DNA of 64,000 bases, from NCBI GenBank assembly GCA_002105175.1, contig MCGE01000031.1:422848-486847 (forward strand). The letters are read 5' to 3'. The stretch is from Absidia repens. Its lineage: Eukaryota; Mucoromycota; Mucoromycetes; Mucorales; Cunninghamellaceae. Below are positions 13,297 to 64,000 of the stretch, one piece after another. Below the pieces are notes generated by a model. That model saw only the letters and a program-made list of their open reading frames with translations. It searched no databases and was not told the origin of the DNA. Every line of letters starts with the position of its first letter. Position 1 is the first letter of the stretch. The position numbers and the translations under genes were made by a program.

Positions 13297-15318
13297 TCAA
13301 AATCGTATTTCAATGTTGGGTCGATCCGAGTTTGGGGTTAGTGGTTGTTGACCTTGTGCAAAGCTTCCTTGACGTTGTCGGGGGAAAAATGACGAGCTGT
13401 ACTGGTCAGTTGTGCCTGATTTTGTTGATTTTGATATTGGTGGTTGCATTTGATGCATCAAGTTTTGATGCTGATGTGGTTCATTTGATGAGGTACTTTT
13501 GTAACTACTAGGTGACTTTACTGCTGGTTGTTGTTGTTGTTGCTGTTGCTGATAAATATGGTTACTGTTGTGATATTGGGAAGAGGAAGAGGTGAGAGAA
13601 ACAGGTGTATGAAGTCCTCCGATAGGGTGATCATCTATTGTCGATTGCCCAGAAATTGATTGTGTTGTTGACGATACTATAAGTGGAGAAGAAGGTGACG
13701 CTGATTTGGATGCTGACATAGCTAGCTGCTGTTGTTGAAGCATTTTTCGAGTATTGATCATGACCCGTAATGCTCTAATTTGTAGTGCTGTCCGGCATGT
13801 AAGTGCTGCTGTTTCATAAACCATACTTGCTGTTGATATCGTCAATATTTGGTGAAGTGCATGTGTCGTCAGTTGAATCAATCGTGGCATATCAAACATA
13901 TGAGCTAGAATCAAAAGCCGTGATAAAATGTTCGGTTGATGTTGCTGTGCTGTCATGAGATGATCCGTGTAGAGATACTGCAAGAAGGCCAATGTCACTG
14001 CATAGGATTCCGTAAACTGTAGTCTTTTTCTATATTGTTGTGTATGCCGATTCTTCAGCAAGTCCGCAAAATATGTCCATCGCTGAGCCAGAACGGTAGA
14101 GTTGATAGGAATAGATTTACGATCAGTTGAGATGATTTCCATGTCGGCCATATTGGGTTCGTTGAGCATACTGAGGCCAAGTTCTTGAGCAATGGAAGCA
14201 CATGTTGATTCTGGACGAGTGTAAATACCAAAAGCCTCCAAGTCCACAATGGCAACATGGTCAAAGTTGATCTGACGATGATTGTAATCCTCCAGCAAGT
14301 CCCTGTCCCGATTGCCCACAACATAAAATTTCTGTCGGTCATGGTGAAGAATGCCACGATTCCAAGATCCGGAGGACAAGATCGAGCCAGTGTCAACACG
14401 AACCCAAACAAGGTTTGCCAGATTCAAAGCCCAGAGATGAAAAGAGCGTTGGGTCGGTGTGAGGTAGGTGCCAGTCATGATCATATGGTGTCCTAGTAAA
14501 TGACCAGAGGGGAATCGAAGACCAGGTGGAAGAAGAGTACCTGACATATCGTCGGAATAATCTTTGAAAGTAACTGGATGATCCTGAAGAGGTCGACAGC
14601 TTTGCAAATCCCTTGTCACATCAGCAAAATTGTAATTGGAATAAATGCAGAGAGGGATGTCGGAGTTGTTGTCACTTTGAGACCACAGTGGTGAATTACC
14701 CTTGTTGATAGGAAGAGGACAGAAAGCGACAGCTCGATAGGCACCGTATTGCTGATCCACAGGGCCACCCTGAACCCACGCCGAGCGTTTCAAGTCGAAT
14801 ATGTTGATTTCGTTGATATATTGATTTGACATATCTTGACCGCCAATCACCATCAGTTTGTCATTGACACATTCCGCCAAATGCGCATATCTAGCTTGAG
14901 GAGTAAAGATACTAGGACTGACTTGAGGGTAAATCCATGAGAGTGTTTCCAAATCAAAGATACAAAGATCATCCAGCGCGCACAATCCTTGAGTGGCCGA
15001 ATTCCGATGAGCATGGCTCATTCCACCAAAAATCACCAGTGAATTGTTGTAAATATTGGCAGAGTGAAAATAGCGTCGTTGAGGGGGTGGAGCGGAGTCT
15101 GGAGGTCCAATGTGTCGTTCCCATACAAGTGTTGCAAGGTCGAGTACATAGAGATGATTCGTCATTTGTCGAGAGGCTACTAGTCGTCCTCCAAACACAT
15201 ACATATGATCGCCAACAATAGTCGTAGAGGCGCCGACCAGCGGTGGAGGTATTTCGCCAGTTGTGGACCTAGTTTCAGTCGTAAGGTCGGCTATAGATGA
15301 TTGCATGCCGGGCGTCAT
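13297..15318 (-). CDS. Kelch-repeat plus BTB protein (673 aa), Ral2/Mds3-like
   Basis: Single-exon gene. Residues about 25-360 form a Kelch beta-propeller: repeated hydrophobic-Gly-Gly strands are seen at MYVFGGRL, LVIFGGMS and KLMVIGGQD, with matching DL..L.W turns. A BTB-like domain follows at about 395-500 (DMEIISTDRKSIPINSTVLAQRW, then FLQYLYTD and LLILAHMFDMPRLI). The last 120 residues are Ser/Gln-rich with a (Q)9 run. Fungal proteins with Kelch then BTB include Ral2 (Ras activation in fission yeast) and Mds3/Pmd1 (TOR/pH and sporulation control), so a signalling or Cul3-adaptor role is plausible but inferred. It is divergent from the hydrolase gene with only 186 bp between start codons. 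An internal ATG 12 nt downstream is an alternative start. Confidence 0.85.
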   Translation of the reverse strand: MTPGMQSSIADLTTETRSTTGEIPPPLVGASTTIVGDHMYVFGGRLVASRQMTNHLYVLDLATLVWERHIGPPDSAPPPQRRYFHSANIYNNSLVIFGGMSHAHRNSATQGLCALDDLCIFDLETLSWIYPQVSPSIFTPQARYAHLAECVNDKLMVIGGQDMSNQYINEINIFDLKRSAWVQGGPVDQQYGAYRAVAFCPLPINKGNSPLWSQSDNNSDIPLCIYSNYNFADVTRDLQSCRPLQDHPVTFKDYSDDMSGTLLPPGLRFPSGHLLGHHMIMTGTYLTPTQRSFHLWALNLANLVWVRVDTGSILSSGSWNRGILHHDRQKFYVVGNRDRDLLEDYNHRQINFDHVAIVDLEAFGIYTRPESTCASIAQELGLSMLNEPNMADMEIISTDRKSIPINSTVLAQRWTYFADLLKNRHTQQYRKRLQFTESYAVTLAFLQYLYTDHLMTAQQHQPNILSRLLILAHMFDMPRLIQLTTHALHQILTISTASMVYETAALTCRTALQIRALRVMINTRKMLQQQQLAMSASKSASPSSPLIVSSTTQSISGQSTIDDHPIGGLHTPVSLTSSSSQYHNSNHIYQQQQQQQQPAVKSPSSYKSTSSNEPHQHQNLMHQMQPPISKSTKSGTTDQYSSSFFPRQRQGSFAQGQQPLTPNSDRPNIEIRF

Positions 15319-15504
15319 GATAATAAAATGAGTGTATATGTATATAAATCAAAGGAAAGTCTAAACCTCCTTATCCAAAAGACAGCGCACCTTATGAATT
15401 GAGAGAAAGAAAAGTAAAAGAAAGAGAGCAAGAAATAGAAAAAGGAAAAAAAGGAGTGCAAAAAAAAAAGTCGGGATTCGAATCTATACCCCAAATTCGA
15501 TAAA
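15319..15504. promoter_or_regulatory. Shared divergent promoter (Kelch/BTB and hydrolase genes)
   Basis: This 186-bp spacer separates the start codons of two head-to-head genes, so it must hold both promoters and 5' UTRs unless the hydrolase starts further in. It is purine-rich (AGAAAGAAAAG and similar) on the plus strand. No specific factor site is claimed. Confidence 0.45.
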
Positions 15505-41154: not shown

Positions 41155-41539
41155 TTACGGCGGGAAAGGAAGAGGAAAAAAGGAAAAGAAAAAAAAAATA
41201 GAAGACGCTAAAAAATTAGAATGCACGGTACCGACACGCGGTGTTTGAATAAGCGAGCCTATCAAATCAAAATACCCAGTTTTTTCTGTAGCCATTGATC
41301 ATGAAAGGGGCTCTCTTTGTGGGTCAGTGCTAGCTGAGATTTGTGTTGAGACCACAATGAGAATGTTCATGCAGTATTTTCATCATAGTCAAGAATGGAA
41401 AAGGGATAACGTGGGTAAAGGAAAAGGAATTGCAGAAATAAAATTGCAGTGATCATAGAATTTTCACACGCATATTCATAATCTTTTTTATCAGACCTCC
41501 TTTTTCGTTTTATCAATATTTATTTATTTATTTTTGTTC

Positions 41540-41570
<31 letters not shown>

Positions 41571-41582
41571 ACTATATACTTG
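41155..41582. promoter_or_regulatory. Divergent promoter (USP and F-box genes)
   Basis: A 428-bp spacer between divergent start codons. A T-rich tract (about 41549-41570) lies directly before the F-box start, and purine-rich sequence precedes the USP gene. No specific sites are claimed. Confidence 0.45.
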
Positions 41583-43697
41583 ATGACGTTTGACCTACTT
41601 CCATATGAAATATTCCAACTAGTGGCATTATCACTTGGCCAAAAGAAGCAAGAGCTTGCTGAATGCTGTCTTGTTTGTACCGACTGGTTACCTCTCTTTA
41701 TGGAACAGCTTTATCTCAACATTACTATATGCGGACCACCAAGCTTTCAACATTTTTATACCTGTCTATCCACCCCAACATCGACACGCTACACTCGCCA
41801 TCGACAACTTCTCATTCGCACACTCTCAATACAAGATGGGAATATCAGTCAAGATGAAATGAACCACCTACCCAGACTCTGCCCAAGGTTGGAACAGCTG
41901 ACAATCGACGGTCGTGCTCATTGGGACCACGCCATGCCTTCTCTTTTCAACAAAACTAGTGGACAACAACAGAACAATGGTACAGAAGCATCAAAAGCAA
42001 TTGACAATACAACAAAAACGAATGCAACCTGGTGGCCTTATTTGAAGTCGGCTTGTATCCTGGCCACTAGTATTACGCCAACGGTGATGCAAAACGCTCC
42101 TCAGCTGACTCGACTTGCTCTTCGTTGTATGTTTGATGGGCGTTTGTCTCAACATCTTGTATCAGCATTGAAGCAGACACCACTCCTAAACTACTTGTCC
42201 ATTGACGAATGTGAATCCTCTCTGCAACAACTGGAAGCGATCCATGATGCCTGTCCCTCACTTATTCAACTGCGACTGGTACATACTATCATTGACAATA
42301 CAGACTATAACCCGTCAATCACACTACCGCCAACTTCAGCATCATCATCACACCAAAGAGTTAGTCGTGGAAACATCATAGCACCTTCTTCGACACTTCG
42401 CCAATTGATTTTACAAGAAGTAACCATTCTAGATGATGACTACAACCAACTCTCCGACTGGTTTATGTATATTGCAATGAAGTACCCTCGACTGGAATCC
42501 CTTGAATGGTGGCAAAAATCTCCACTTGGTCTGACCGACACGCCTCATATCGATACCTCTGTGGCATTGTATCTGACTTCTCAATGTCCTCTTCTTAGAT
42601 CGGCTCGATTATTCAACATCAATGTGGATTCTATATTTTATCATTCACTTTTGGAACGAACCCAGCAGCTCCATCATCCATTATCGTTATCGAATTCGCA
42701 GGTCAAAGAACTTGGAATGAATTATAGCTTAGATCTCGGTCACTGTGCACAACAACTCCAGTCATACCTTCTGTGGTGGAATGAAAAGGAATCACCGTTG
42801 GATTATATACCTCGCCTCCCGTCGTCTTTGGTCTCACTTCATTTGTCTGGACGCATGTGCTATAGCTCCTTCGACATGAATTTGATTTTCGATCAATGCC
42901 CTCATTTGGAATTCTTACAGTTGGATTTCGGCACTTTGGACCAGGTGGCACCAGAACATGCATATCAATGGAAAAAACAGCATCCTTTGAAACGACTGAT
43001 CATGGAAGAAGTCAAGTTCTCCGCACTTGCCTTCAAATCGGTTGCGTTCCGATGTCGGGATTTGATTGAATTGGATTTACTGGATTGCATATTGACGGAT
43101 GGTGAAGGGAATGTCAACATTTATCAAGGGGAAGGCAATACCGGCAGCAATAGCAACGGTAGTACTTTGGACAATGACGATGACGACGACAGTGATGGGC
43201 GAAATCACGGGCGACTTGTCTTTCCTTATCAGCACTTTGAAAAGGTCAAGCTTTGTGGATTTCGATTCGCTCTCAATCCATCCTTACGGGCGAAAACTGT
43301 GGGCATATATGAAATGGACAAAATACTACAACAGGAACGATGGTATTATCTCAGCCACCATGCTACTTTTTTATCTTATGTGCCGGTACACTCTTGTCGA
43401 TACAAACTTCCGGTGCACGCAATCAAACAGCACTGTATCGTAAAATCATTGCCCACGCCATCACCTTCATCAACATCAGCACCATCAAATCATGACGACA
43501 TTAATTATTCCTCCTCTCCTCTTCCTCCTCAACAACAACAACAACAACGTCTACTTGTACCGCCAACTGAATTAAATGCTCTACGGGAAATGCAACGACA
43601 ATATGGTAAATTTGGACGGGATGCGCCCTGTGCTGGTTACCTGACATTGGTGTGCCAATCCATCAATAGTCTGTATTTGGAAAACCGACGAATATGA
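41583..43697 (+). CDS. F-box protein with leucine-rich-repeat-like body (704 aa)
   Basis: Single-exon gene starting MTFDLLPYEIFQLVALSL. The F-box covers residues 1-45 (LLPYEIFQLV...ELAECCLVCTDWLPLFMEQLY), the Skp1-binding part of an SCF ubiquitin ligase. The body is a series of imperfect leucine-rich units (LPRLCPRLEQLTIDG, APQLTRLALRCMFD, TPLLNYLSIDECES, ACPSLIQLRLVH, CPHLEFLQLDFG, CRDLIELDLLDC), which normally bind substrates. Gly/Asn/Asp-rich (residues ~510-540) and Gln-rich (about 645) inserts are present. This two-part layout is common and expanded in Mucoromycota; the substrate cannot be read from sequence. An AATAAA occurs about 210 nt after the stop. Confidence 0.88.
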   Translation: MTFDLLPYEIFQLVALSLGQKKQELAECCLVCTDWLPLFMEQLYLNITICGPPSFQHFYTCLSTPTSTRYTRHRQLLIRTLSIQDGNISQDEMNHLPRLCPRLEQLTIDGRAHWDHAMPSLFNKTSGQQQNNGTEASKAIDNTTKTNATWWPYLKSACILATSITPTVMQNAPQLTRLALRCMFDGRLSQHLVSALKQTPLLNYLSIDECESSLQQLEAIHDACPSLIQLRLVHTIIDNTDYNPSITLPPTSASSSHQRVSRGNIIAPSSTLRQLILQEVTILDDDYNQLSDWFMYIAMKYPRLESLEWWQKSPLGLTDTPHIDTSVALYLTSQCPLLRSARLFNINVDSIFYHSLLERTQQLHHPLSLSNSQVKELGMNYSLDLGHCAQQLQSYLLWWNEKESPLDYIPRLPSSLVSLHLSGRMCYSSFDMNLIFDQCPHLEFLQLDFGTLDQVAPEHAYQWKKQHPLKRLIMEEVKFSALAFKSVAFRCRDLIELDLLDCILTDGEGNVNIYQGEGNTGSNSNGSTLDNDDDDDSDGRNHGRLVFPYQHFEKVKLCGFRFALNPSLRAKTVGIYEMDKILQQERWYYLSHHATFLSYVPVHSCRYKLPVHAIKQHCIVKSLPTPSPSSTSAPSNHDDINYSSSPLPPQQQQQQRLLVPPTELNALREMQRQYGKFGRDAPCAGYLTLVCQSINSLYLENRRI

Positions 43698-44817: not shown

Positions 44818-47307
44818 ATGATACGTCAAACGCTGCCCTCTGTGCAAGGTGATACGGGTAAAGATAAAAATATATTGGAAAATACAATAGTTAAACAGGA
44901 AATTCTGTGAATATGCATCTAACTCTTTTTTTTATCTTTTTCATAGATAATAACGACAGCAGATGGACTGACCTGGAAAATCAAAAAATACAAGTGGCAC
45001 CAATGAATTCACCAAGAATGATCAAGATGAATTTAGCACCAGGACCAGCAGGAACAGTGGCAACGCTATGGATCGATGATTTGACTATGGGCCAATATAC
45101 ACCAAAACTCGCATTCAATGCGCTGATTGTGGATACTAAGGTGGTTCAGTCTCAAGGTGTCATAACGTTAGTCGCTACCGTCCCTTCACATCGCGAAACT
45201 CACTGCTCCACAACGACTGTGCCTATCTATTTATGTTTGCTCGAAGATGACGATGTGGTGGTTACCTGGCATATTACCGACTTTTCTTATGATGGTATAA
45301 TCAAACTGGAGGATTTGGATCAGGTGAAATGTGAAACGGCAGCTCCTCCTCATCCTTTTTTGTCTTCACCTCCAACCCCACCGATGACAGCAACAGCATC
45401 AACAGCGGTAGGAACAACGACAACCTCAGCACCAGTAACTCAGCGTATGCTCTCATCTCCTTACCATGAAGATTTTTACCAGTCTGCCTCATTGGAACCA
45501 TCCATGTCATCATTATCATCCACCTTACATGGTAATCAATACTCCAATTTATCAGTGCAATGCGTCTTATCTAATGGCAATGACAGTAAGTGTTACATAC
45601 ATTGATGCAACAATCATATGAAAATATACACCTGACACCAATAATATTTTAATTAACCAATCTTCTTCTTCTTTTTATTTGGTTTATTTATTAGGTTATC
45701 AACCGACTTCCCGACAACGAGCATCATCGATTGCCGATCTTCCCTACAGTGATGACACTCCTGGCTTCTCTGAAAATTCAAATTCCGGTTTCACAAACTT
45801 GCTTACAGAAAACTTTGATCCGAATACTACTCCCACCACCACGCTTCATTATGCGCCACGTGCGAATGTGATCAAACAGTTACAACAACAACCAACTTAC
45901 ATTCCCACTTTCACCGCTACCAGCAATATCAGTGCCCCAGGGTCGACCCATCATCACCTTCGCTACCACCCGATGCCATCAAATACAAGATCCCACTCTT
46001 TAGGCTCGTACAAGGCGAGTGGTCATCAGTCAAGCACATCCGTGGCAAGCTATCAACCTTATCCTGGGCTTATCAGTCGTGCCAATCTTGTCCTTTTGGG
46101 TGATTTGAATTCAATGACTCAAAACTGGTGTCCCGAGGAATGGCAATGCTTCCGGCGTCTGGTCCGCTTCTACCGTGAAAAGTCTGATCATGATATACGA
46201 TGCAGTTTTGAAAACGTCGCCCCCATTAAAGAGATACAACCGGATGAACAAAAAGCACCCCACACCACTCATATGGATGGAACACCGGTAGCACAACGAC
46301 AACAAATACAGCAACAGCCTGGTTCAACGACGCCAGCAGCAGCGGATTCCACGATGACGACGACGATATCCACGGTGATTTCCTGTATCTATTGGCCCGA
46401 GAAAAACGACTGGTTTATTACTTCGGTGGACTGCATTCATTTGCTGGAACACTTGATGGATCTCAAGTTCTCTGTGGAAGAAAAAAACCGTGTACGACGC
46501 AATTTGGAAGGATTTCGTCCCTTGACTGTCAGCAAAAGCAAAACGGACAGTGCCGACTTCTTCAAGCTTGTCATGTCGTTTCCCAACCCCAAGCCGAGAA
46601 ATATTGAAAAGGACCTCAAGGTGTTTCCGTGGAATACTCTACCTTACGCTTTGAAAAAAATCATCACCAAATACACCGCATCATCCTACGGCACAGCCAA
46701 TCTCACCAATGACATTAACAATAGTGGCAGACAGCGCCAGCGACAGCGTCGTCGATCTTCTCACCAGGACATGCCATTATCACCACTATCACCATCGTCA
46801 CCCACATCTTCACAGACGACAATATCATCCTTTGGCGCAGTACCTCAACCACCACCACCACCTCCTCCTTCGTCTTCATTACCCACACTATCCTCATCGT
46901 CCTCATCATCCATCTCGTCTGCTTCTTTTCCATTGTCAACTTCCTCATCAGCATTATCTCATCGACGTGCATCGGCTCCTTCTCATGATATTAACAATGC
47001 TAGTGATTATCGACCTTTGATGATGCCTTTTTTATCCATGTCATCTCCCACTACGATGACGTATCAACTTCCCCCACACTGTCGTTCTCTATCTACGTCC
47101 GACCCCATTGCTGCCTATCGCTTCAACACCACCCGACTTCCTCCTATGGATGACCCTTATACTTTACCTGACTTGCTCAATCCAAACCAAGCCGTTTCTC
47201 CTCCATCTTCTACCAACATCGCCAAAACGACCGTTACTACAGAGAACACTGCAGACATCGCCACAGAAACCAACAACAAGTCAAATGAGCAAAATGTCTT
47301 CCCATGA
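44818..47307 (+). CDS. medA: Medusa (MedA)-type developmental regulator (763 aa, 3 exons)
   Basis: Exons 44818-44857, 44947-45585, 45695-47307; they total exactly 764 codons. Residues about 35-125 form a conserved N-terminal beta-rich block (MIKMNLAPGPAGTVATLWID...LVATVPSHRE...VPIYLCLLEDD). The C-terminal conserved domain (about 385-545) is diagnostic: WCPEEWQCFRRLVRFYRE, ISCIYWPEKNDWFITSVDCI, FSVEEKNRVRRNLEGFRPLT, and FPNPKPRNIEKDLKVFPWNT. This matches MedA/Ren1/Acm1 proteins, which control conidiation, adhesion and virulence traits in ascomycetes. A role in sporangium or spore development here is an inference. Between and after these blocks are long Ser/Thr/Pro/Gln-rich stretches with poly-Pro and poly-Ser. 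The 13-codon first exon is predicted from a good donor (GTAAAG) and a matching phase. Confidence 0.9.
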
Positions 47308-49911: not shown

Positions 49912-52900
49912 ATGTCTTCCAACAGGGAATTGGCTCCCAAAGAAAGTGCCATTTTTAGAAATGTACTGGTAAGTCACCAACTTTTTTTTTATCTTCTCCT
50001 TTTCTTTCTATCCAAAGTAAAAACGCGAATAAAATATAACTCTTCCATTTTATTTTTATTTTTTACTCCTTTAGAAAAACTACGAACTTCGACAATACAA
50101 GAAGGGTCTCAAGTTGGCGGAATCCATTCTGAAGAAGTATCCTAACCATGGTGGTAAGTTTGTCTTGGAGAACACCCCATCTTTTTAAAAGACTAACCAG
50201 ACATGCTTTTCTCTGTCTAGAAACTCTGGCCATGAAAGGTATCTTTTTGAACAACTTGGACAAAAAAACTGAAGGATACGAATATGTCAAACTCGGTGTT
50301 CGCAATGACTTGACGTCGCATATCTGTAAGAACTTGAATTATTGGAAATAAGATTATTTGATACACAAGTGACTGATCCTTCCATCTTATAACTTGCGTT
50401 TTGCAGGTTGGCACGTTTATGGATTGATGCACCGAGCTGACAAAAACTATGCCGAAGCTGCCAAGTGCTACACCCAAGCTTTGAAATATAACAAGAACGA
50501 TGTCAACATCCTCAGGGACTTTGCCCTTATGCAAACTCAACTTCGTCAATACGATTCAGCTGCTGTAAGTGGTATATGTATATTTTGTTTATATAAGATG
50601 AAACACTCACCCCCATTTCTCTTTCCAATCTACAGGAAGCCCGTGCCCAACTTTTGCAACATCGACCCACGAACCCACCTTTTTGGATTGGATTAGCTGT
50701 TTCTTACCAAATGGCTGGTAAACCTGACAAGGCCTTGACCGTGTTGAAATCTCAGGAAGAAGCCATGAAGGTAAGGAAACCTCAAAAAAGTTAATCCATT
50801 TCACTCATCCCCTTCTTTTTGAATAGGATACACCTGTCAACTACGAACAATCCGAATTGCGTCTTTACCATAACTGTCTCATTGAAGAAACTGGCGATTT
50901 TGAAGGTGCTTTGGAACATTTGAACACCATCGAACCAAAAGTAACAGACAAGCGTAGTGTGAAGGAAAAGAGGGCCCACTATCTTAGTAAACTTGGCAAG
51001 GTGGAGGATGCGGAATCAACCTATCGTCTACTCATCAGCGAAAATCCTTATGACAGCCGCTACATTTCAAAACTTTTGCAATTGAAGGGCTTGGACAAAG
51101 GTAAAAAAAAAAAAAAAATATTATAAAACCGAATGATGCTTTATCTTTTTATTATTTGGATCCTTTAGATGATAAAAAATCAGAAGCAAACCAACTGTTG
51201 GCGGATTTACTTGCACAATACCCTCGATCAAAGGCAATCGAAGATTTGTCTCTCCATTATGCGGAAGATGATTCGTTCAAGGTGAAGGCTGTGGCTGCTA
51301 TCCAAAATGCTCTCCGAAAAGGTGTACCCTCTTTATTTGCAACCATGAAGAAATACTACTCGAATGAAAAGAAACAAAAGACAATCACCGAATTGGTCGA
51401 ATCTTATGTCACTTCCCTTGAAAAGAATGGATCCTTTGAAGAAAACGGTAAGTATCAAAAAAGAAAAAGAAAAAGAATCAATTGCAAACACGGCGGTAAT
51501 GTGTTCATCTTTTTTTTTCACCCTCTTCTAGGCTCCAAAGAGCCTCCTACTGCTCTACTATGGTGCCTTTATTATCTTGCACAACACTACGATTATCACC
51601 GTCAACTGGACAAGGCATTGTCGACCATTAACAAGGCAATCGATCATTCTCCAACCGTGGTGGAATTATACATGACTAAAGGCCGAATTTTGAAGGTAAG
51701 GAGGGATTCTAGAGAATCGAATTAGGATGATGGTGATTGACCTTTTGCTTCCTTTCTTTCTTTATCTTTTTATATTGCAGCATTCTGGAAAACCTCAAGA
51801 TGCCGCCAATGTGATGAACGACGCTCGTGAACTCGACTTGCAAGACAGATTTATTAATTCCAAATGTGCCAAATACATGTTACGTGCCGATCGTGTGGAG
51901 GATGCAGAAAAGACTATTGGCTTGTTTACAAGAGTAAGTTTAATTGAGAAGAAAAAAAAAAAAAAGGTGATCATAATAGAGTGATAGAATATGGTACTAA
52001 TGTTTTTTATTTATTCCTTAGCGAGAAGTAGAGCCCATCAAAGATATGGTGGATATGCAATGCCAGTGGTTTATGACTGAAGAAGGCTACTCATACGCGC
52101 GACAAAAGAACTATGGCAAAGCTTTGAAGCGATTCCAGGCGGTGGTTAAATTCTACGATGACTACTTTGAAGACCAATTCGACTTCCATGCCTATTGTCT
52201 TGGTAAGGCTACCTTACGTGCCTATGTGGATATGTTGCGATCTGAAGACCGAATGCGTGGCCATCCTTATTATGCTAAGGCTGCAAAGGGAGCTGTGGAA
52301 GTTTACCTGGCTATGGCGGATAAACCAAAAGAAACCTCATCCCTGGATGAAGCCAACATGACGGAAGCAGAAAAGAAAAAGGCTAGAAACAAGGCTCGCA
52401 AGGCAGAAATCAAGGCAAACAAAGAAAACCAGGACCCTGCTGCTGCTACCACTGCTACTGATGCCGCTGCCGTTGAGGATGCAGAAGACAAGAAGGAACA
52501 AAAGGATGAACAACACAAGAAGGATGGCAAGAAAAATGTGGATCAGGACCCTGAAGGCGACGCTTACTTGAAAACAACGAATCCATTGGAAGAAGCTTTC
52601 AAATTAGTAGAGCCTTTGACGCGATTGGCGCCCGGCAATGCTGACACTCATCTTTTGGCTTTTGATATCTATGTCCGTCAAGAAAAATGGCTTTTGGCAA
52701 TCAAATCTCTGAATACGCTTGCCCAATTGAACAAGAATCAACCTGAATTGAAGTCAAAGATCGATTATTGCAAAAATGCTGGTAAGTGCTGGATAAGAGA
52801 ATGGAAGCATAGTAAACAATTGACTGACCTTGCCAATTTTATCATTATCATTATTTTTTTGCTTCCTATAGTTGCTAAACCAATCACACCTGTTGACCCT

Positions 52901-52948
52901 CGTATCCAAACTCTTATTGATAGCCAACTTGCCAAACTCGTAGTTTAG
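49912..52948 (+). CDS. NAA15: NatA N-terminal acetyltransferase auxiliary subunit NAA15/Nat1 (746 aa, 11 exons)
   Basis: Exons 49912-49968, 50075-50153, 50221-50325, 50407-50564, 50636-50770, 50827-51100, 51169-51447, 51532-51695, 51781-51933, 52022-52781, 52872-52948; they total exactly 747 codons. NAA15 is the ribosome-anchored TPR scaffold of NatA, which acetylates protein N-termini exposed after Met removal (family knowledge). Diagnostic stretches: [97 protein letters not shown] and [21 protein letters not shown] Lys/Glu/Ala-rich charged linker (about residues 540-605) follows, as in other NAA15 proteins. It is about 110 residues shorter than the yeast and human proteins, mainly at the C-terminus. 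An AATAAA lies about 130 nt after the stop. Confidence 0.95.
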
Positions 52949-54197: not shown

Positions 54198-56728
54198 ATG
54201 GTGATTCCATATTTACTTGAAGATTGGCAACGCGAAGCGGACATTGTCACGATGGATGAACACTGTGTAGTCAAAGCAATTGGAAATTATATTCTGAAAC
54301 AAACTTTGGGTAAAGGCTCTATGGGAAAAGTCAAACTTGGTATTCATATTGTCACTGGTGAAAAGGTAATCAATAATAAGGATATATACCAACTGATTTA
54401 TGCATCATTTTTTGAAACTCATTTCGTTATTTTAATGCTATTCAATATCAATAGACTGCCATCAAAATCGTTCCCCGGGCTACTCGAAACCGAAAATTGA
54501 CACCAAAGGAATTATCAAGAGAACTGCGCGCTATTCGGGAAGGCCATCTTATGATGCTATTGAATCACCCTCATATTGTCTATTTACGGGATATGGTTGC
54601 TGGCAGCCATCACTATTATTTTATGATGGATTATGTTAGTGGTGGCCAACTGTTGCACTATATCGTCAAAAGAAGCTACCTTACGGAACAACATGCTCGC
54701 CACTTTTGCCGTCAAATGGTCAGTGCTCTGGATTATATGCATCGGAACTCGGTAGTACATCGCGATTTGAAAATTGAAAACATTCTGGTAGATAGCACAG
54801 GTCGCAACATCAAAATAATCGACTTTGGTCTGTCCAATCTTTTTTGTCCTGAGCGTCAACTCACTACCTATTGTGGTTCTCTCTATTTTGCTGCCCCGGA
54901 ACTCTTGAATGGCCGTCCTTACCGTGGTCCTGAAATCGACGTGTGGAGTCTTGGTGTAGTGCTTTATGTGATGGTCACTGGCTCGGTACCTTTTGATGAC
55001 AAATCTTTACCCGGATTACATGAAAAAATCAAACGTGCTCAAGTGGCTTACCCAGCGCATTTGTCTTCTCAATGTCATCAACTGCTTTCCACCATCTTCG
55101 TCGCCGAGCCGCAACAGCGCATCACTTTGGCTGATATCATCCGTCATCCTTGGCTCAACGACGGTCACTCTCGTTATATTCGCAATCACCTTCCGTTCCG
55201 CGAACCTCTATGCCTTCCATTGGATGAAAATGTTTTGAAACGAATGACTTATGGATTTAGCCTGGGTACTACTGACGATATTCGAATGAAGATGGAAGTT
55301 ATTTTGCAATCGTCCGTTTACCGTATCTCTGCCACTCATGTTTCTGATATTCAATCACTTTCTCTGAACAATCAAAAGAATAGCAGCAATTCCAGTATCA
55401 ACAACAATTCATTCTCCTCCTCCACCTCCCTCTTTATGAAATCTTGCAATCGACTGTCTGGGAAAAAATCGTGCAAGCGAGCTACCAACAACAAGGATGC
55501 GAGCCATATGATCTGGGGGTCTTACAATGATCCGCAAACAGTGCCAGCAGCCTATCATCCACTTTTATCGATATATTATCTTACACGCGAACGAATGGAG
55601 CGAATAGAGGATATCTTAACACCAAGAAAGCATCCGCCAATGGAACCAGCATCATCATCACCAGCAGCAACCTCAAAACCAACACTGTCATCCTTGGAAA
55701 ATACCATGGAAGATATACAATCGAAACATTTAGCTTCATCTCAGCAACCGAACCAAATGATAAAAAATGAAAGGGACGACAGCGAATGCTCGAAACGACA
55801 TATTCACACGAAACAACACCAACCGGATTACTGCAAGCATCGAACTTGCAACCTACCTCCATCGACATCTCCATTACATGCAGCAAAAACAAGTAAGCAG
55901 TCAAAATCTCATCATCACCAACGACTGTTAACATCATCATCATCCTCTTCAACACCAGGTTTAGCAGTAACATCTTCTCTTGTGTCATCGGCTCTGTCGT
56001 CGTCATCATCTACACACTCAACATTATCCTTTAATTCGGCTTTGAAAGCATGGACAACATCATCCTCTTCATCATCAACGACGCTACCCTTACCACAGAC
56101 CCTTGGAATAATTGATAGCAACAACATCAATACCACCAGATCGACACTGCCTTTTTCCTCAATCAAATCGACGACGGCAACGACGAAGCGGAAAATACCT
56201 TTATTTTTGAAACTTGGTGCATTCTTTAGACGAACACAGAAAAACCGAAGCCAGAAAGGCCACAACAATGGAAACCACCACAGACGCAAAAAACGTCAAC
56301 AGCGGCACCGACACCATTGCGACGTTGTGGATCGTCACTATCAGAACGCCAAAGTTACCCATCGACGACGATCTTCCCAGGCATCAGATACAAGTTTATA
56401 TGACGAGGATCAACAGCAGCAACCATTGGTACCGTCAACGTCGATTCATGAACGAAATACGAATACTCATCATGTGTCATTACTCAGTCCAACCGCATCA
56501 TCAGTTTCATCAGATTCCACAAAGACACCACGATTACGCCCAATGCCAATGACCCCTGACAAAAAGCACAACGACAGCGATGGGAATGGTACGGAGACGA
56601 CAAGGACAAACCGCCATAGACATGAACGCACACCTAGTTGGCTTTCTCGGAGACTCAGCACTTGGATGGACAATGCCCTTCTTTTGAATCGATCTACTTC
56701 GGGACTAGGTCAAACCAGGCGAAATTAG
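54198..56728 (+). CDS. KIN1: Kin1/MARK-type Ser/Thr protein kinase without visible KA1 tail (813 aa)
   Basis: Exons 54198-54365 and 54455-56728; they total 814 codons. The kinase domain (about residues 30-300) has all key elements: glycine loop LGKGSMGKV, catalytic Lys60 in TAIKIV, HRDLKIEN (Asp160), IIDFGLSN (Asp179) and FAAPELLNG. The activation loop TTYCGSLYFAAPE holds the LKB1/Elm1-type Thr. Similarity is highest to fungal Kin1 (polarity, exocytosis, cell-wall signalling). The remaining ~500 residues are low-complexity Ser/Thr/Gln/His-rich with basic patches (KKRQQRHRHHCD, FRRTQKNRSQKG). The C-terminus (SWLSRRLSTWMDN) does not show the KA1 lipid-binding fold normally ending Kin1. The basic stretches might replace it in membrane binding. 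A second in-frame ATG (MDEHC) lies 18 codons downstream. Confidence 0.9.
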
Positions 56729-58502
56729 AATTGAAGCCACTGTTATTTTGTAGAATAGTATATATTTATACATTAATTATTTAGTTAGCTTGTAGTGTAT
56801 TATTTTGTATATTACTCTTATATTTGTAGACTACGTTTTTGTTATTTCTTTAATAAAAGTTTTTTATTTCATCCTTTTTTTTTTTCCTTTTCTTTATTTG
56901 TGGAAACACGGTGTAATGTTAGTGGGGTGGATATGTGCGTTTTGGTAAGAGAGGAAAAAGAAAGCATGGGTTAAATGGAGCGGGTCCAAGGGGTTATTTT
57001 GAATGGGCTTTCTTTTCTTTTTCACGGGTACCATGTACATATGCTGTATTGAGGATGAATGGTCATGGAATTCAATTATAGGAAGTGTAAGTCGATGAGA
57101 GGTGAGCTATGGGGAGCCGAGAAGCACAAAAATAAAAGTTGGAATTCAAACGAATATATTGCTGCATGAATATGTCGACTGTTTGTTATATAGAAACGAA
57201 ATAATGAACCGGATGTACATCATACCCAGAACTTTGATACTTTAAAGAGAAGGAATATGCTGTCGACAAGGTCTTTGGTGACTGATCTGAATAGTTGATT
57301 AGCAAGAGGCTCGCGTTCCATATTGATTGATATTGATCTGCTAATCAGACGCAAGGGCTCCTGAGAGAAACATAGTTGTAGTGCAAGGGAAAATAATCAT
57401 TCGGTATCGTGATCGTTGCACTCACGGTTCAGACTAGGTTTATTTACATGGTTGATAGAGAAAGACCAGGCTTATACTTCATATCAAGTGACCTACAACT
57501 ACAAATCAAATGCTGAGGCATACCGGAAAACGTAGCACTACAAGGTTAGAAAGCAGGTGACTCCTAACACACTCATAAAATAGCCATGATAGTGGTTTTA
57601 CTCGTTATAAAATGGTTCAGAGAATGGGTAATAAAAAGGTATATTTTATTAAAGTATAGAGGGTCAATAGTAAATGAAAGGCGCAGGGCTCATTGTAACG
57701 AGATCTAATGGAAGTAGTATGATGAGAATGTTGGGACAGCTGAAGAATGTTCAACACAAACCATTACAAAAAGGGCTCTAATTTACTGTACATGGGATGA
57801 GAAATACTAAAGAAATAGTTTTTATGGAAACACAACGACGGTCAACATTAATCAAAAGAATCATCATCGTAAATCAGGATCTATTGCACAAGACATGAGA
57901 AGGACTAATGGGACATTTTTTCATTGAAGCGTGTAATAAGAGATATATTTTATTCAAATATAGAGTTTGACTATGGACAAACTATCAAACTAAACTAAAC
58001 TAAGCTGATGAAGGCTTCAAAACACCAACTGATGGTGGCTATAAATCCTAGATCCAAAATGAAAGGGTTTTCCCATGCATGTTGTAATCCCTGAGCTGAA
58101 ACCCCTTCTAAACTAGTCCTGACACTAATCTAAATCCAAAATTAGCCCATAGATGCCACAATTGTGAAGAATTAAAGAAGGAAAAAGAAAGAAAAAGCGA
58201 AAAAATAAATTTGGAAATTTTTGCAGACAAGCAATTCATAGGGCAGTTACAGCTTAGCTTTTCAACTTGAATTTGAGACGGAGTGTAAAATGGTTTTAGA
58301 CGATGGCAAAATAAAGTTGGGAAGGGAAGTAAAATAAATTGCGATGAAGGGAAAAGGTAATTGGGACAGGAGGCAAAAGTAGGTGAGACAAACAGGTGAG
58401 CCAAGATGAGAGTAAAGGAAAGTGTGAGTCCAAATGAAATATCTTTGTGTTTCATTTTCTTGTAACTTACGTGTATACATCAACACATATTTGTTATGTG
58501 GA
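56729..58502. other. Intergenic region 3' of the Fanzor gene (holds repeat copy E)
   Basis: The kinase 3' UTR (AATAAAA near 56851) is followed by sequence without recognisable genes. Repeat copy E covers about 57605-58215. The ~290 bp between copy E and the Fanzor stop codon is unlike the other repeat copies and is a candidate for the Fanzor 3' UTR or guide-RNA region. Confidence 0.5.
57605..58215 (-). repeat. Dispersed repeat, copy E, immediately 3' of the Fanzor gene
   Basis: Left part near GGTTCAGAGAATGGGTAATA. Internal blocks: GGTCAACATTAATCAAAAG, ATCTATTGCACAAGACATGA, ACTAATGGGACATTTTTTCA, ATATATTTTATTCAAATATA, CCCATGCATGTTGTAATCCC and TCTAAACTAGTCCTGACACT. Homology with copy A extends through GAAGAATTAA.GAAGGAAAAAG and then stops near 58215, where A-D continue straight to their right end but this copy continues toward the Fanzor gene. 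The stem AAAGGGTTTT/AAACCCCTT is at 58062-58107. Read on the minus strand it has several AATAAA signals, so it can also act as the nuclease gene's 3' UTR. Confidence 0.78.
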
Positions 58503-59428
58503 TTATTGTTCAGTGGTCGGTCTTGCCAACAGCCCAGGGCGTCTTCCAGCAGTGACAAGGTTCATAAAAGCGGCGCGCAGATTCCGAGATGCATTGGTGT
58601 CCCGTTGCCACACAGTGTTACAGCGACGACACGCTAACACTGCGTACATACGTTTCGCCTGTTCACCAGGTCGGGTAATCACCGAGTTCGTGAGCTTTCT
58701 GTGACCACATTTTGAGCATACTTGCGACGTACGATATTCATCCATATTCACAAAAACAAGTTTCCCAGACTTGTCCGCCTTTGACAAAAGATGTCGACAC
58801 TTGTCAGCAAGGGATCCTTCGCCTTTTTTATTTCTGCCGAACTTTGCGTCGCCGAAAACCACAATCGGTACCTTGTCTTTGTCATTGTTTATGGGAGCCT
58901 TTTTCCATTTCCTATGTATCAGAAATATGTACAACAGATGTTATTATGCCTTGCATATACATTTTTAAATTAAATAAACTTGCCTAAGCTTCGGCGGCGG
59001 CGGAGGAAGAGGAGGTGGATCATCAGTATCGTAAGACCTTGTTCGTCGTCGTCTTCTTTGTTGTGTCTGGCCAATATTTGATGATCTTTCCATGGCACCT
59101 GGTGGAGGTCTGTACTTGTGGCCGCCATCAATCAACACATTTACCAATTCGGCGTCCATCTTTTGTCTTCCTTGGTAATTGGCGAACTGCAGACCGAGAA
59201 TAGCCTCTTGCCCATAAAATTCAGTCAAAGGACTTAGCGCTTGTAATGATGATTGAATGTATGCCTGTATCCCTTCCAAATCAGTGGTTTTGTTTGTCGT
59301 TATTTGCGCCTCCACAGTTCGAATTGCCTCAGTTTTCAACATGTTGATTTTGTTGGACGTTTTTCTGAAGCCTGCACGAGTATAATATTCGATAGAGGAT
59401 ATACGTCGAATTTCATGACCTTAACACA

Positions 59429-59482
<54 letters not shown>

Positions 59483-62400
59483 TTAGAATGTCGTCTGTCT
59501 GCCATTAGATGTCCTTTTCAATTACTCTCTTGTTCGTGGTCAGTATCGACTTGAGCATCAGCATCAGCGTGGGCGGCAATATCAGCGTGGGCGGCAACAT
59601 CAGCGTGGGCGGCATCATCAGCGTGGGCGGCAATATCAGCGTGGGCGGCAATATCAGCGTGGGCGGCATCATCATCTTGGGCGGCATCATCATCTTGGGC
59701 GGCATCATCATCTTGGGCAGCTCCTAGCAACGACATTAGTAAATAAACCAAAGAAAAAAAGAAAAAGTCAATACATAAACAATAGTTCTTGTAGTAAACC
59801 ACCATAGCCACTTACCCTCCTGTTCCACTGCGTAATTGTAAACGTCATCACTTGAACCATTGCTAGCCACATAGATTGAATTCATGCCAGGATCTACACC
59901 CCACACATTCAAATACGGGAATTCCCACGCTTGGAAGTCTTCAGGTTGCAAATCAGGAAGAGCAGCATCATTTCGAATCGGCTTGTCGAAAGGGATTGAT
60001 ACAGAAAATCCGTTCGTCACGATGTACTTTGCAAATATCATCCCATTCCCTTTTCTGATTTTGTCAACGTTGAGGATGTTCGTCAATGTTTCATCGCCAT
60101 GGATATATTGTGTGAGGCCCACTGATCGAAGGATTTGCCCCATGGATATGTTGTCGATTTTGATGCTTTTCTTTGTATAGGACGGTTTCGGCACCAAGTT
60201 GTAAACTTGTTGCTTTTTCATCAAGTGATCGACTTCAGGTGTAAAGCATATTGGTAACAAATCCTGGTGGTGTTCAGGGTCCTGTAAGTATTCAACAGAA
60301 TGAAGAATTTGCTGGCGAGTGTTGGCGATGGTGTTTTGTAAGGATGTAAATGACAAGTCCGACAGGTACGATAATTGTTGGCGGTCAAGGTTGTCGTTTG
60401 TCGGTATAATTTGTTGTATTGTTTTTGCCAATTTTGACCGTCGGCGTCGACCTATTCTTGAGTTTTCATCAAGTCCACGTACTACTTCAAAGCACCAAGT
60501 GCGAGGAACTACGGTCTGTACTGGGTTTACTGCATTTGCGGTGTCGATATTGTGTTGGTCAAAAGCGCGGACAATGTTATAACCATACTTCGTGAAGATA
60601 TCGCAATGGCGAGAAATATATGCAGTTGACAGTTGCGTAGTCGAATTGTCTAGCAATGTTGCCGGTGCCCCCGCCTGTTGACAATAGTTGATCAAATTAT
60701 TCAGCAAATGACGATTTCCAAGTTGATCGTTGTCGAAGTATTGTCGTTGAGCTTCCAAAAATTGGCGATGTGGGTTGGTGTATGTATCCTGACGAGCGCC
60801 GAGATCATCAAGTAAGGGCCGTACCTCCATAATAGCAAGATCCAAGGAGTCAAGAAGTTCTTGCGTTTCCTGGTTGATGTTATCTGCGCCATCCACTTGC
60901 TGTTCCATCATCGTTTGCAAAGATGTCATCACACCGTTCACCATGCTGTCATTCCATCGTTCGTCGTTTAGCTGGTGTTGAAAACCGAAGTGATTTGAGA
61001 CATTCAATAGCAATTGGGTTGAAGCTTGGTACAGACGAAGCAGTTCCTGGAGTCTGGTGGATAATTGGATCAAAGAGGCAACAATCGTGGGATCCATGGC
61101 TTCCGCTACTTCGGTTGACATTGTTCCAATTCTTGAGATAGTGATTGTGATGACTGACCGAAGGCCGGTTTCCCTGTTCATGATACGTCCATGAAGAACA
61201 CCGTATGCATTTTCAACTTCTTTTCCAAGTGAATCAGTTTGTTCTTGTAGAGCAGCCATATTATAAACACACAAAAGGTCCACTTTCCCATCATCTAGTA
61301 CAGCATTTACATCGTCTTTTATTTCGTCAGTAATGCCAGGTTGAGACAAAGCATCAGAAGACACGATTGCAATATCCGCATTGTTGACCAGACTTGCTAG
61401 GATGTGAAGCCCCAATACGTTGCAAGTTTTTTCAATCGAATCCTATGAATACAATACATGGCGGTAAGTATCAAACATTGACCTCTGTATACTTTTATTG
61501 TATTGTATTACTTACCTTTTGTTGTTCCTGTTCTAATATTTGTTCTTCAGGATCCTGCTGCTGGAGAAGTTGCTGTTGCTGTTGTTGTTGATGCTGTTGG
61601 TTCTGGCGTTGCACCATTCGCTGACGAAGACGTAAAGAAAATAAATTTGACATCCACTGCGTAAAGTCCTCAACAATTCGATTTGTAAATTTTGTCGCAT
61701 ATTGGGCCAACATTGGAGTCAGAATACTCGCATACGCTTTTCCATGAATTTTTCGTACAAGAAAAGCTTGTCGGGACGCTTCTGTTGGATTCAGTTGCTG
61801 ATACACATTGTCGATATTCGTCGCCAAATCCATGCTGATTGAATTGTTGATGGTGATGTTGCTGCCAGTGACTTGTTGAAAGATAGCATAAAAAAAACTC
61901 ATCGTAAAGAGCTGTTTTGGTATGGGTTGGTGGTTCGTCAAAGAGTGATATAGATAAAATGTAATAAATAGGTGCACTTTTATGACTGTATCCCGAGTGT
62001 ACGAAACAACGTCGCTGATTCCCTGTAGAATTTGTTGATGATGATCCTGGTTTTCAATCCGCAGCAATGATTTCAGTCCCTGTTTCCGGCAAACCGTCGT
62101 CGTTTTACCCAATTCTTGTTGTACTTGTTGTAGTCGAGTCTGTTTCCGGAAGGGGCATTTTCGATTTGTTGATCGTGAATGAGTGGTTGCTGTTTCAAAG
62201 CTACGATGTTCAAGGCAAACCGGGCAAGAACGGACTGATTGCTTTTGACCAAGTTTTTTTCGCATTAAAGAGCCACCCCGTTTGGCCACCTTTTCGAGAG
62301 TACCTTGTTTGCGCTTACGCTTGGACCCAGCTAACTGTCTTGAAGTTGAGCCGCGAGTTGATAATGAGGAGGCATCACCGTCGCTGTTATCACTGTCGGT

Positions 62401-62670
62401 GTCATCATCGTTTTCCGCACGTCTTTGTTCATCTTCAGCTTTTTGTGTAAAAAAAGAAAGATTAGTAAGATTACCTTGTTTCTCATACTAATTTGTTTAG
62501 CACTTACCATGACGCAGGTTCGCTTGCTGTCGTTTCCACCGTTTTTTGTACATAATGATATCAAAAACTGTCATTCCTTCATAAGTTGTTAGGGGTTGAA
62601 TAACATCATCCTGTGTCATATCCATCAATCTAAGCAAGTCATCCTCGATAATCAATTGATTGGCGGCCAT
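58503..62670 (-). CDS. Fanzor-type RNA-guided endonuclease (TnpB homologue), 1,251 aa, 6 exons
   Basis: Exons: 62670-62508, 62438-61516, 61442-59816, 59723-59526, 59419-58984, 58911-58503; they total exactly 1,252 codons with no internal stop. RuvC-I is YLNVWGVDPGMNSIYVAS (Asp near residue 879). The segment RRISSIEYYTRAGF, a conserved VVFGDAKFGR, and DEYRTSQVCSKCG with CRRCNTVWQRDTNASRN give the Cys4 zinc ribbon (Cys 1181/1184/1210/1213) and RuvC-III (Asp near 1220). This layout defines TnpB-like nucleases; the length, introns and Lys/Arg NLS (GSKRKRK) point to eukaryotic Fanzor. Such enzymes use a guide RNA from the element's 3' end to cut DNA. An N-terminal Cys/His cluster (CPVCLEH...KCPFRK, from about 126) and a Gln run (about 340) are extra. 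Exon 4 is a coding minisatellite. Intron 5 is GC-AG. The RuvC-II Glu could not be assigned. Confidence 0.85.
59421..59481. repeat. (CA)n microsatellite joined to a ~40-nt poly-A tract in a Fanzor intron
   Basis: On the minus strand this is a poly-T tract followed by (TG)n ending TTAAG, directly before exon 5 of the Fanzor gene. It acts as an extreme polypyrimidine tract for that acceptor and is likely to vary in length. Confidence 0.8.
59560..59722 (-). repeat. Coding minisatellite, ~9 units of 18 bp, in Fanzor exon 4
   Basis: The plus strand shows tandem GCGTGGGCGGCAATATCA-type units then GCATCATCATCTTGGGCG-type units. On the coding strand they encode AAHADI/AAHADD/AAHADV and three AAQDDD hexapeptides, about residues 905-960. 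Every unit is 18 bp, so copy-number change would keep the frame. The exon therefore inserts an acidic, Ala-rich linker between RuvC-I and the rest of the RuvC fold. Confidence 0.85.
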
Positions 62671-63239
62671 ACTGATGATAGGGACCTGGAGGTATTGGTG
62701 TTTGTTAAAAAGAAAAGAAAACAAAACGCTGTTGCGGCTAAATTTGTGATTTTAGTCCAACTGGATTGTTCCTTGGGCGGAATTTGAAATGACTTGTTCC
62801 TGAATCGGACAAAAATAGAATTGAGAGTAGTGAGCACCAGAACTTTTGTAGATAAAGTCCAACTGTAGAGAAAGTTTATAAAAAATAAACTTGAAAGAGT
62901 AAAATAAAATAAAAAAGAAAAGTATTGACCTTTGTTGGTTCAATAAAAATAAGTGTATAACACACAGTAAAAATAAAAAAGAGGACTTGTAGTCACAAAA
63001 AATAAAAGAAAGTTTCTATATAGACGATAGAAACAAAATAAAAATAAGACAGTGGTTTGGTGGTTAAAAGCCTTTGTACTGAATTTTATAAAAAAGATTG
63101 AGATAAATATATGATAATAGATAGCTTAAGAAAAAAGAGAATTGGCGGGGGAAAGGTGGGGTATTTATACTAAAAATAAAGTGGCGGCGAGTACTGAACG
63201 TGATAAAAAAATATAAAAATAAAAATGATGATCGACCAG
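62671..63239. other. Promoter side of the Fanzor gene
   Basis: AT-rich with (A)n/(AAAT)n runs (62880-63010). No gene seen. A motif shared with the right ends of the dispersed repeats lies at 62775-62790 and is listed separately. Confidence 0.5.
62775..62790 (-). repeat. Repeat-end motif 5' of the Fanzor gene
   Basis: GGGCGGAATTTGAAAT differs at one base from GGGCGGCATTTGAAAT, where similarity among repeat copies B and D ends. It lies about 105 bp upstream of the Fanzor start codon. With copy E on the other side it may delimit the full-length element. A 16-bp near-match by chance in this window is unlikely but not excluded. Confidence 0.5.
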
Positions 63240-63490
63240 TATCCTAGACCGGATAGGAAATCAGCGGCTTCCTGTTTTCGTCCAGTTCGATACTTGATTT
63301 CAAAGTCATATTCAGCCAAGTATTGGATCCATCTTGCTACAATACCAGATACTTTGGGTGATTGTACCAACCATCGTAAAGGTGAGTGGTCTGATATGAC
63401 AGTGAATTTTTTGCCAAGTAAATAAGGCCTGAATAGTTGCAGGCTCCATACTAGGGCGAGACATTCCAATTTAGTAGCACCGTAGTTTTG
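63240..63490 (-). pseudogene. Ty3/Gypsy retrotransposon RNase H relic
   Basis: The minus strand encodes NYGATKLECLALVWSLQLFR, then YLLGKKFTVISDHSPLRWL and IQYLAEYDFEIKYRTGRKQ with AADFLSGLG. This is the RNase H segment that follows reverse transcriptase in Ty3/Gypsy pol (TKxExLA and TDHxxL patterns). Upstream the frame meets a stop at once, and downstream it runs into AT-rich non-coding DNA. No reverse transcriptase, integrase or LTR is visible within the window, so this is a truncated fossil. Confidence 0.8.
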
Positions 63491-64000
63491 TTGTCAATGG
63501 AAGATTCAGTTGATTTATATTGTTACAAATATACCCCAATCAGCCAATAGAGGAAGATATTGTATGAGTCATCTTTTTACAAACACCCCATTTCCCCTCC
63601 TCCCCGTTCATACGAGTATTCACAAATACAACATGTCTACTGTGAGTATTTCTCTTCCACAACACAACGCTACTATACCCTACAAAGCAATATAATACAT
63701 ACTCTACAAAAACAAATCAACACATACCCTACAAACAACACAACATATACCCTACAAACAACACAACATATATCCTACAAACAACACAACATATACCCTA
63801 CAAACAACACAACATATACCCTACAATATATAACAACACATATCCCTCAAAGAATAGTATATTTAACACGAAAACAACACACGTATTCCACAAAAACAGC
63901 GTACACAAATATTTTTTCAAATGTGATTTTTTTATTGCAGTGACATGATAAAATAGACGGTAATAGTAAAATAAGAGACAATATACTGTATAGTAACATA
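63491..64000. other. Window end: tandem repeats and AT-rich sequence
   Basis: No gene recognised. A ~23-bp tandem repeat occupies about 63675-63850. Frames that stay open through it encode Thr/Asn/Gln-rich repeat peptides and are by-products of the repeat. Confidence 0.5.
63675..63850. repeat. Tandem repeat, ~23-bp unit, about 6 imperfect copies
   Basis: The unit is TATACCCTACAAACAACACA plus ACA. Central copies (63727-63825) are nearly identical and the edges are diverged. Units abut directly with no unique spacer, so this is a minisatellite and not a CRISPR-like array. Confidence 0.85.

Follow-up and report, generated by a model that had tools for sequence, protein, structure and literature searches.

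Does the six-exon gene on the minus strand at positions 62670 to 58503 of the 64,000-nt stretch of the Absidia repens genome analysed here (contig MCGE01000031.1; "the window" denotes this whole stretch) encode a Fanzor, a eukaryotic RNA-guided DNA-cutting enzyme, and what carries it? A sequence-only reading of the window had described an apparently intact, unusually large and possibly active Fanzor gene in a neighbourhood of relics. The frame is intact, but the description was incomplete, in that the window copy belongs to a young, multicopy transposon family. We consider it likely that the locus encodes an oversized, predicted RNA-guided nuclease of the Fanzor1 type, carried as cargo by a non-autonomous DNA transposon of the Tc1/mariner type. 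A lone intact gene was considered and rejected, as the genome holds 11 full-length copies, four of them open.

Gene structure and Fanzor signature

The six exons join in phase to 3,756 nt, giving a frame of 1,252 codons including the stop and a protein of 1,251 aa. The coordinates and frame of the sequence-only reading were exactly right; it did not mention that, of the five introns (69, 73, 92, 106 and 72 nt), four are GT-AG and the last is GC-AG. Exon 1 (62508–62670) begins with the start codon at 62670 and is followed by a GTAAGT donor. Exon 2 (61516–62438) encodes a basic KRKRK signal (aa 94–98), a Cys/His cluster of the form CxxC...H...C starting at C126, and a Gln run. Exon 3 (59816–61442) comprises a central region, which would occupy the REC/WED position, with the RuvC-I motif GVDPG (D879) at its end. 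Exon 4 (59526–59723) is an array of 18-bp (6-aa) units, repeated in tandem and in frame, that lies between RuvC-I and an alternative RuvC-II glutamate, and exon 5 (58984–59419) continues the insert in RuvC, with a basic and poly-Pro stretch at its end and the GC donor. Exon 6 (58503–58911) holds G1136, the alternative glutamate E1174, a Cys4 ribbon (C1181, C1184, C1210, C1213), the RuvC-III aspartate D1220 in RDTNASRN, and the stop. Thus every motif named in the earlier reading, namely GVDPG, the Cys4 ribbon, RDTNASRN, KRKRK, the N-terminal Cys/His cluster and the Gln run, has a place in the 1,251 aa. The intron-end dinucleotides recur in all 11 full-length copies, which together with the profile score of exon 6 argues that the exon frame is not due to chance.

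The same reading had pointed to a profile search and to the position of the RuvC-II acidic residue as checks on the assignment. The exon-6 frame matches PF07282 with an E-value of 8e-12 and 45.6 bits, above the cut-off of 26.3. Matches to NCBIfam profiles of TnpB (8.5e-8 to 1.5e-7) and Cas12f2 (4e-6) all score, four of four, under cut-offs that were set for whole proteins. Searched alone against the PDB, exon 6 gave 28 weak matches (E up to 10; best E-value 0.045), including several to TnpB or Cas12 and none to a Fanzor. Fanzors are distinguished from ordinary TnpB by DPG in RuvC-I and by a RuvC-II glutamate shifted to six residues before the ribbon (PMC10711439; here and below, citations refer to the accessible part of each paper). 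Both features are present, the glutamate as E1174-YRTSQV-C1181, and the protein thus follows the published rule for Fanzors. E1174 is our candidate for the acidic residue; it is named by applying this rule to the sequence, the quality of the fold models having been too low for a structural placement. None of the 11 full-length copies has lost D879, E1174, any of the four cysteines, D1220 or G1136. G500 and E536 of SPu-1-1p have been named as further residues conserved in Fanzor1 (Bao and Jurka, PMC3627910), and the spacing of G1136 and E1174 (38) resembles theirs (36); this likeness is only suggestive, with the proteins unaligned and the metal-binding glutamate of SpuFz1 numbered E541 elsewhere (PMC10432273).

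Most Fanzor1 proteins have 600–700 aa (PMC11423790), so that the predicted protein is about twice the usual size. Its length, already remarked on in the earlier reading, appears real as far as sequence can tell, and is backed by a second, distant Fanzor-like gene elsewhere in the genome (C1:1074150-1078250; pieces L059–L061), in which the matching domains follow the same order across ~4 kb. Identity to the window protein is 24% in the N-terminal Cys/His cluster, 36% in RuvC-I with GVDPG, and 37% over 70 residues of the ribbon (45% on a shorter stretch). Since cluster, RuvC-I and ribbon keep their order, the extended N-terminal half is a genuine part of the gene. The ribbon of this relative is preceded by NEAYTSK and then a likely intron, and if so spliced it would keep the alternative glutamate. 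Two relatives of exon 6 elsewhere, 61% (C24) and 48% (C34) identical, both align from R1116, at the junction of exons 5 and 6. The C34 relic has a stop and has lost the glutamate; on C24 the frame is open, with Asp in place of Glu and Asn in place of the last Asp. More diverged ribbon matches were seen at C67:576363, C78:256358 and C36:169500, all three with stops, and at weaker places; they may be the remains of other Fanzor-like genes, or, for the weakest, possibly chance. A scan of viral contigs yielded no relative; eight stretches fitted a pattern, and none of them was confirmed. Taken together, the motifs, the profiles, the comparison of copies and the distant relative in the same genome support the identity proposed earlier, that of a real Fanzor gene, with an open frame and a predicted RNA-guided enzyme as its product.

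A transposon family and its ends

A PF07282 search of the genome found 13 loci, 12 of them alike, and a search with the core DNA gave 11 long matches at 98–100% identity plus three fragments. We count the family as 11 full-length copies and one with an internal deletion (C15b), in which the right end and the final 225 codons, counting the stop, are retained. Frames are open in the window copy and in those on C56, C39 and C8. The 18-bp repeat of exon 4 spans 144 to 252 nt across the 11 copies, its length being a multiple of 18 in nine. Outside exon 4 the copies differ by 97 single-step codon variants (38 synonymous, 59 nonsynonymous, no stop), against 28.1% synonymous, 67.5% nonsynonymous and 4.4% stop expected under a neutral model with transitions weighted fourfold; the excess of synonymous variants (p 0.025) and the absence of stops (p 0.013) hint at purifying selection on the Fanzor copies, and a copy could possibly be active as a nuclease.

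The carrier is a transposon of ~6.5 kb with 26-bp terminal inverted repeats (TIRs) adjoining TA. A typical left end reads TA-CAGGTTTTCCGGTTGAACTTGAGACG, and the right end is a related inverted copy followed by TA. In the window the right TIR lies at 58250–58280, with a 5-bp insertion or duplication near its outer end, next to TA at 58248–58249; a 23-bp tandem repeat lies in the 5' part of the element (63659–63845). From there the element runs off the contig, whose end coincides with that of the window, and the left TIR falls outside the window. The contig C47 starts inside a Fanzor-type 5' end (L058, C47:1-620). This may be where the window copy has its left end, in which case ~235 bases between the two would be missing from the assembly. 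Seven copies were read at both ends, six of them measuring 6,409 to 6,565 bp and the deletion copy 4,255 bp, and repeat-pattern positions give the C26 copy a span of ~7.8 kb. All seven have TA on both sides, and every left end read follows TA, which suggests that TA is duplicated on insertion. The left repeat starts with CAG in five of the seven, with TAG in C15a and with GAG in C15b. The 12 right ends all terminate in GCTG-TA, and 11 different flanks follow, one of them common to C32 and C34. With up to two mismatches the TIR pattern occurs 29 times in the genome, and in a reversed control not once. Two long copies, on C32 and C3 (L056, L057), have left ends ~16.5 kb from their right ends, and each pair is taken to belong to one element whose interior was read in part; in both, a minisatellite of short units interrupts the left TIR after CAGGTTT and leaves TA-CAGG in place at the outer edge.

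Traces of a transposase are found at the ends and in related repeats. Nine Fanzor-type left ends keep the last 19–20 codons of a tail that elsewhere follows matches to the DDE_3 transposase family, on which ground the carrier is read as a non-autonomous element of the Tc1/mariner type. No transposase was found inside the short element, DDE_3 being the only transposase family searched. Two shorter elements of 753 and 764 bp (L049 94–846 and L050 94–857) have the same TIR at both ends, beside TA. The first encodes a 155-aa frame, without a Pfam DDE match, whose last part is 47–58% identical to the sequence directly after the DDE_3 matches on C35 and C46. A related repeat, CAGT...TTGAGACG, was found 113 times when up to two mismatches were allowed; on C48 and C35, DDE_3 matches lie immediately inward of it. 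We conclude that the carrier is a mariner-type transposon, which by these traces would need its transposase from elsewhere.

Several smaller observations concern the same ends. Small duplications or filler lie just inside the last AAGCTG in four of the 12 right ends, in the window copy (C25; window 58250–58262) and in C12, C8 and C15a, and are longest in C12; they may be repair scars, and would lie near the junction of scaffold and guide in the candidate guide RNA. C5:433739-436367 has a Fanzor-type left end and a 99% identical long terminal repeat (LTR) 2.2 kb inward, with no match to the Fanzor core, and is perhaps a deletion derivative; the sequence next to this left end was inspected for a transposase, and C5 has no listed DDE_3 match. 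A DDE_3 match in a 244-aa frame at C8:576731-577000 lies outside the element, ~1.2 kb beyond the right end of the C8 copy. Just beyond the right end in the window, 57877–58205 is a diverged repeat (~71–78% identity) that is also found next to several other copies, in some cases in inverted orientation or on the other side, and the element has possibly inserted into or beside one repeat family.

The element also contains retrotransposon sequence. The LTR of a high-copy retrotransposon, which we take to be of the Ty3 type, lies at 62766–63176 on the minus strand; it ends ~95 bp before the Fanzor start codon and may be a source of promoter for the gene. Of 417 first-look candidates for this LTR family in the genome, 40 were scored: those within copies of the element are mostly 98–100% identical to the window LTR, those in C32 and C3 95%, and the others listed 93–95%. 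An open frame at 63170–63493, also on the minus strand, contains a fragment of retrotransposon RNase H (PF17917, 1.1e-18). The long copy on C56 has protease and reverse transcriptase (RT) frames upstream of its Fanzor gene and an RNase H interrupted by ~1.2 kb; a further frame at the gag position has no Pfam match, and no integrase was matched among the three C56 frames scanned. A retrotransposon was rejected as the mover of the element, which has TIRs at its ends beside TA.

Insertion sites, proposed mechanism and rival explanations

The two bases before the left TA, and likewise the flank of the right end, were scored for A or T at both positions (WW). In a first count, which excluded both short elements (AA in each) and a degraded end on C38 (AG), all ten left ends were WW, compared with three of 11 right ends. 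Three more left ends (C47 and the long C32 and C3 copies) were all WW as well, giving 13 of 14 with C38 counted (p 0.002 against the right ends). As a control we compiled by hand 22 ends of a related, Fanzor-free repeat family, taken from 80 matches as those with TA kept and an exact repeat pattern. The left ends differ from these (4/22 WW; p 1.5e-5), ends of a related but not identical TIR family, many of which share ACTA or similar and are thus perhaps non-independent. Right ends did not differ from the control (p 0.66). The A/T bias of the left flank is a possible target-adjacent motif, about 5'-WWTA.

On the mechanism that we propose, a DDE_3 transposase supplied in trans would move the element, and the spliced mRNA would yield a nuclear protein that takes up a guide RNA transcribed from the 3' UTR and TIR at the right end, with the first bases of the right flank serving as the guide. 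The enzyme would then cut an empty site matching its own flank, after excision or on a sister or allelic chromosome, and repair from the occupied copy would restore the element, which would thereby be retained or spread; the left-flank preference would correspond to the target-adjacent motif, about 5'-WWTA. The scaffold (omega) RNA is placed at 58250–58400 on the minus strand, a candidate assigned by position only, by analogy with other Fanzor1 loci, and the candidate guide would be the flank beyond 58248. The right end is nearly invariant across the 12 aligned copies, and these near-identical sequences offered no usable covariation; the four Rfam matches are all under their gathering scores.

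Several results weigh against this account. The distance from DPG to the glutamate (292) and the ribbon loop (25) lie outside a published search expression, DPG-x(120,160)-E with a ribbon loop of 12–18, which is not stated as an activity requirement (PMC10711439); the protein passes only after widening, because of the exon 4–5 insert and the long ribbon loop. The TDG motif of the WED domain, called characteristic of Fanzor1 in the same source, is found nowhere in the 1,251 aa, and we therefore hold the assignment to Fanzor1 less firmly than that to Fanzors in general. AlphaFold models of single exons were poor (pLDDT 49.2 and 33.5), and a Foldseek search with the first of them, returning nothing relevant, was uninformative. 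No homologue was found at E 0.01 among 5.8 billion proteins, and the full-length protein gave three chance-level matches in the PDB, none of them a solved Fanzor. RNA from the right end has no unusual fold stability (z -0.57), and no autonomous partner with the same TIR was found among DDE_3 transposases, the only family searched. Known target-adjacent motifs span about 4 nt, and the left-flank bias, which reaches to about -9, is broader. Frames are broken in seven of the 11 full-length copies (C12, C15a, C34, C32, C26, C3 and C79), and neither the variable columns by codon position (33, 27 and 43; p 0.15) nor the comparison of intron with exon variability (p 0.29) indicates significant constraint.

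These broken frames and non-significant comparisons, together with an RuvC repeat whose length changes freely between copies, are what speaks for a gene that is Fanzor1 by descent and now a passenger without a nuclease role, the mariner-type transposase alone moving the element and the intact copies being merely young. We think this rather unlikely, because the catalytic residues are intact in 11 of 11 copies, stops are missing among the 97 variants and synonymous changes are in excess, the flank bias is one-sided, and DPG, the ribbon and, as we read it, the glutamate are preserved in the distant C1 relative. The bias itself may instead reflect target choice by the transposase. Its width fits that explanation, as do the two short elements that share the TIR and lack a Fanzor: these too have AA before the left TA, and three of their four right-flank bases beside TA are A or T. 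Yet the TIRs are near-symmetric, so that a transposase should favour both sides alike, and the right flanks behave as control ends do. We give transposase choice a little under an even chance. A different origin, in which the element belongs to another class of transposon or arose when a retrotransposon picked up a Fanzor, with TIRs that are only incidental, could draw on the abundance of the LTR family and on the C56 copy, with its protease, RT and RNase H frames and related LTRs on both sides. It is very improbable given that the 12 right ends share one GCTG-TA terminus while their flanks are of 11 kinds, that TA precedes each left end read, that the RNase H is interrupted and integrase was missing from the frames scanned, and that Ty3 sequence in Spizellomyces Fanzor loci has been described as a sign of past Ty3 transposition (PMC10432273). 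The reading of a predicted nuclease as transposon cargo is thus the one that we prefer. A bolder extension of it, which we regard as speculative, is that the gene represents a giant Fanzor branch (>1,200 aa, with the N-terminal Cys/His cluster and a copy-variable acidic repeat in RuvC) whose RNA-guided activity has determined the sites at which its mariner-type carrier persists, only insertions beside a left WWTA-like motif matching its own target-adjacent motif being retained.

Comparison with known Fanzor elements and other window genes

Fanzor1 has already been published from Mucorales and from mariner-type elements (PMC3627910), as have Ty3 sequences in Fanzor loci (PMC10432273) and a Fanzor1 with an insert in RuvC (PMC11423790). 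The Mucorales elements of Mucor circinelloides (MCi), Rhizopus (ROr) and Phycomyces (PBl), which we liken to the window family by description and not by sequence identity, are likewise multicopy and several kb long; MCi-2, whose 11 copies are nearly identical over a 6-kb stretch on the 3' side and differ in their 5' parts, is much like it (PMC3627910). They are, however, MuDR-like with 9-bp duplications, or unclassified and without TIRs, whereas the window family has mariner-type TIRs and TA (PMC3627910). In the latter respect it resembles SPu-1/SpuFz1 of Spizellomyces punctatus, which has TIRs, TA, multiple copies and no transposase between the repeats (PMC10432273, PMC3627910). A conserved CA before the left repeat of SPu-1 forms with TA the CATA motif required by SpuFz1, a parallel to the left bias described here, and some SPu-1 loci hold Ty3, like the retrotransposon sequence in the window element (PMC10432273). 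SpuFz1 has 633 aa in a single frame within a ~2.1 kb element, compared with 1,251 aa, six exons and ~6.5 kb (two copies ~16.5 kb) here. PUl-4, PUl-1 and PGv-1 also carry Fanzor1 in TIR elements beside TA, PUl-4 encoding Fanzor1 alone; their hosts are Pythium and an algal virus, and PGv-1 and PUl-1, in addition, encode a transposase (PMC3627910). PpFz1 of Parasitella parasitica is a Fanzor1 with a RuvC insert too, the FRI domain of ~100 aa, which is folded and binds cyclophilin, in contrast to the variable acidic 6-aa repeat and the sequence up to the basic and poly-Pro stretch seen here (PMC11423790). By analogy with FRI, this repeat might modulate how the nuclease is loaded or how it binds a partner.

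Among the accessible passages on Fanzor that were read, none described a 1,251-aa Fanzor with a copy-variable RuvC repeat. The new points here are the length of 1,251 aa, the 18-bp RuvC repeat with its copy-dependent span of 144 to 252 nt, and the one-sided A/T preference on the left. The role of Fanzors for their transposons is unsettled. The present family is young, with 11 full-length copies, a deletion that keeps the right end, and identifiable ends, and it bears an oriented insertion signature that predicts a target-adjacent motif; with copies, ends and signature in one genome, retention of a transposon by RNA-guided cutting becomes directly testable. The family further contributes an enzyme roughly double the typical length, whose RuvC insert comes in a natural series of lengths.

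Elsewhere in the window, a 751-aa open frame at 41442–43697 has no Pfam match. Pieces of ordinary eukaryotic genes lie at 9784–11136 (Mrp51), 13297–15348 (Kelch/BTB), 45622–47307 (DUF7082), 52022–52948 (NatA auxiliary subunit) and 54455–56728 (protein kinase).

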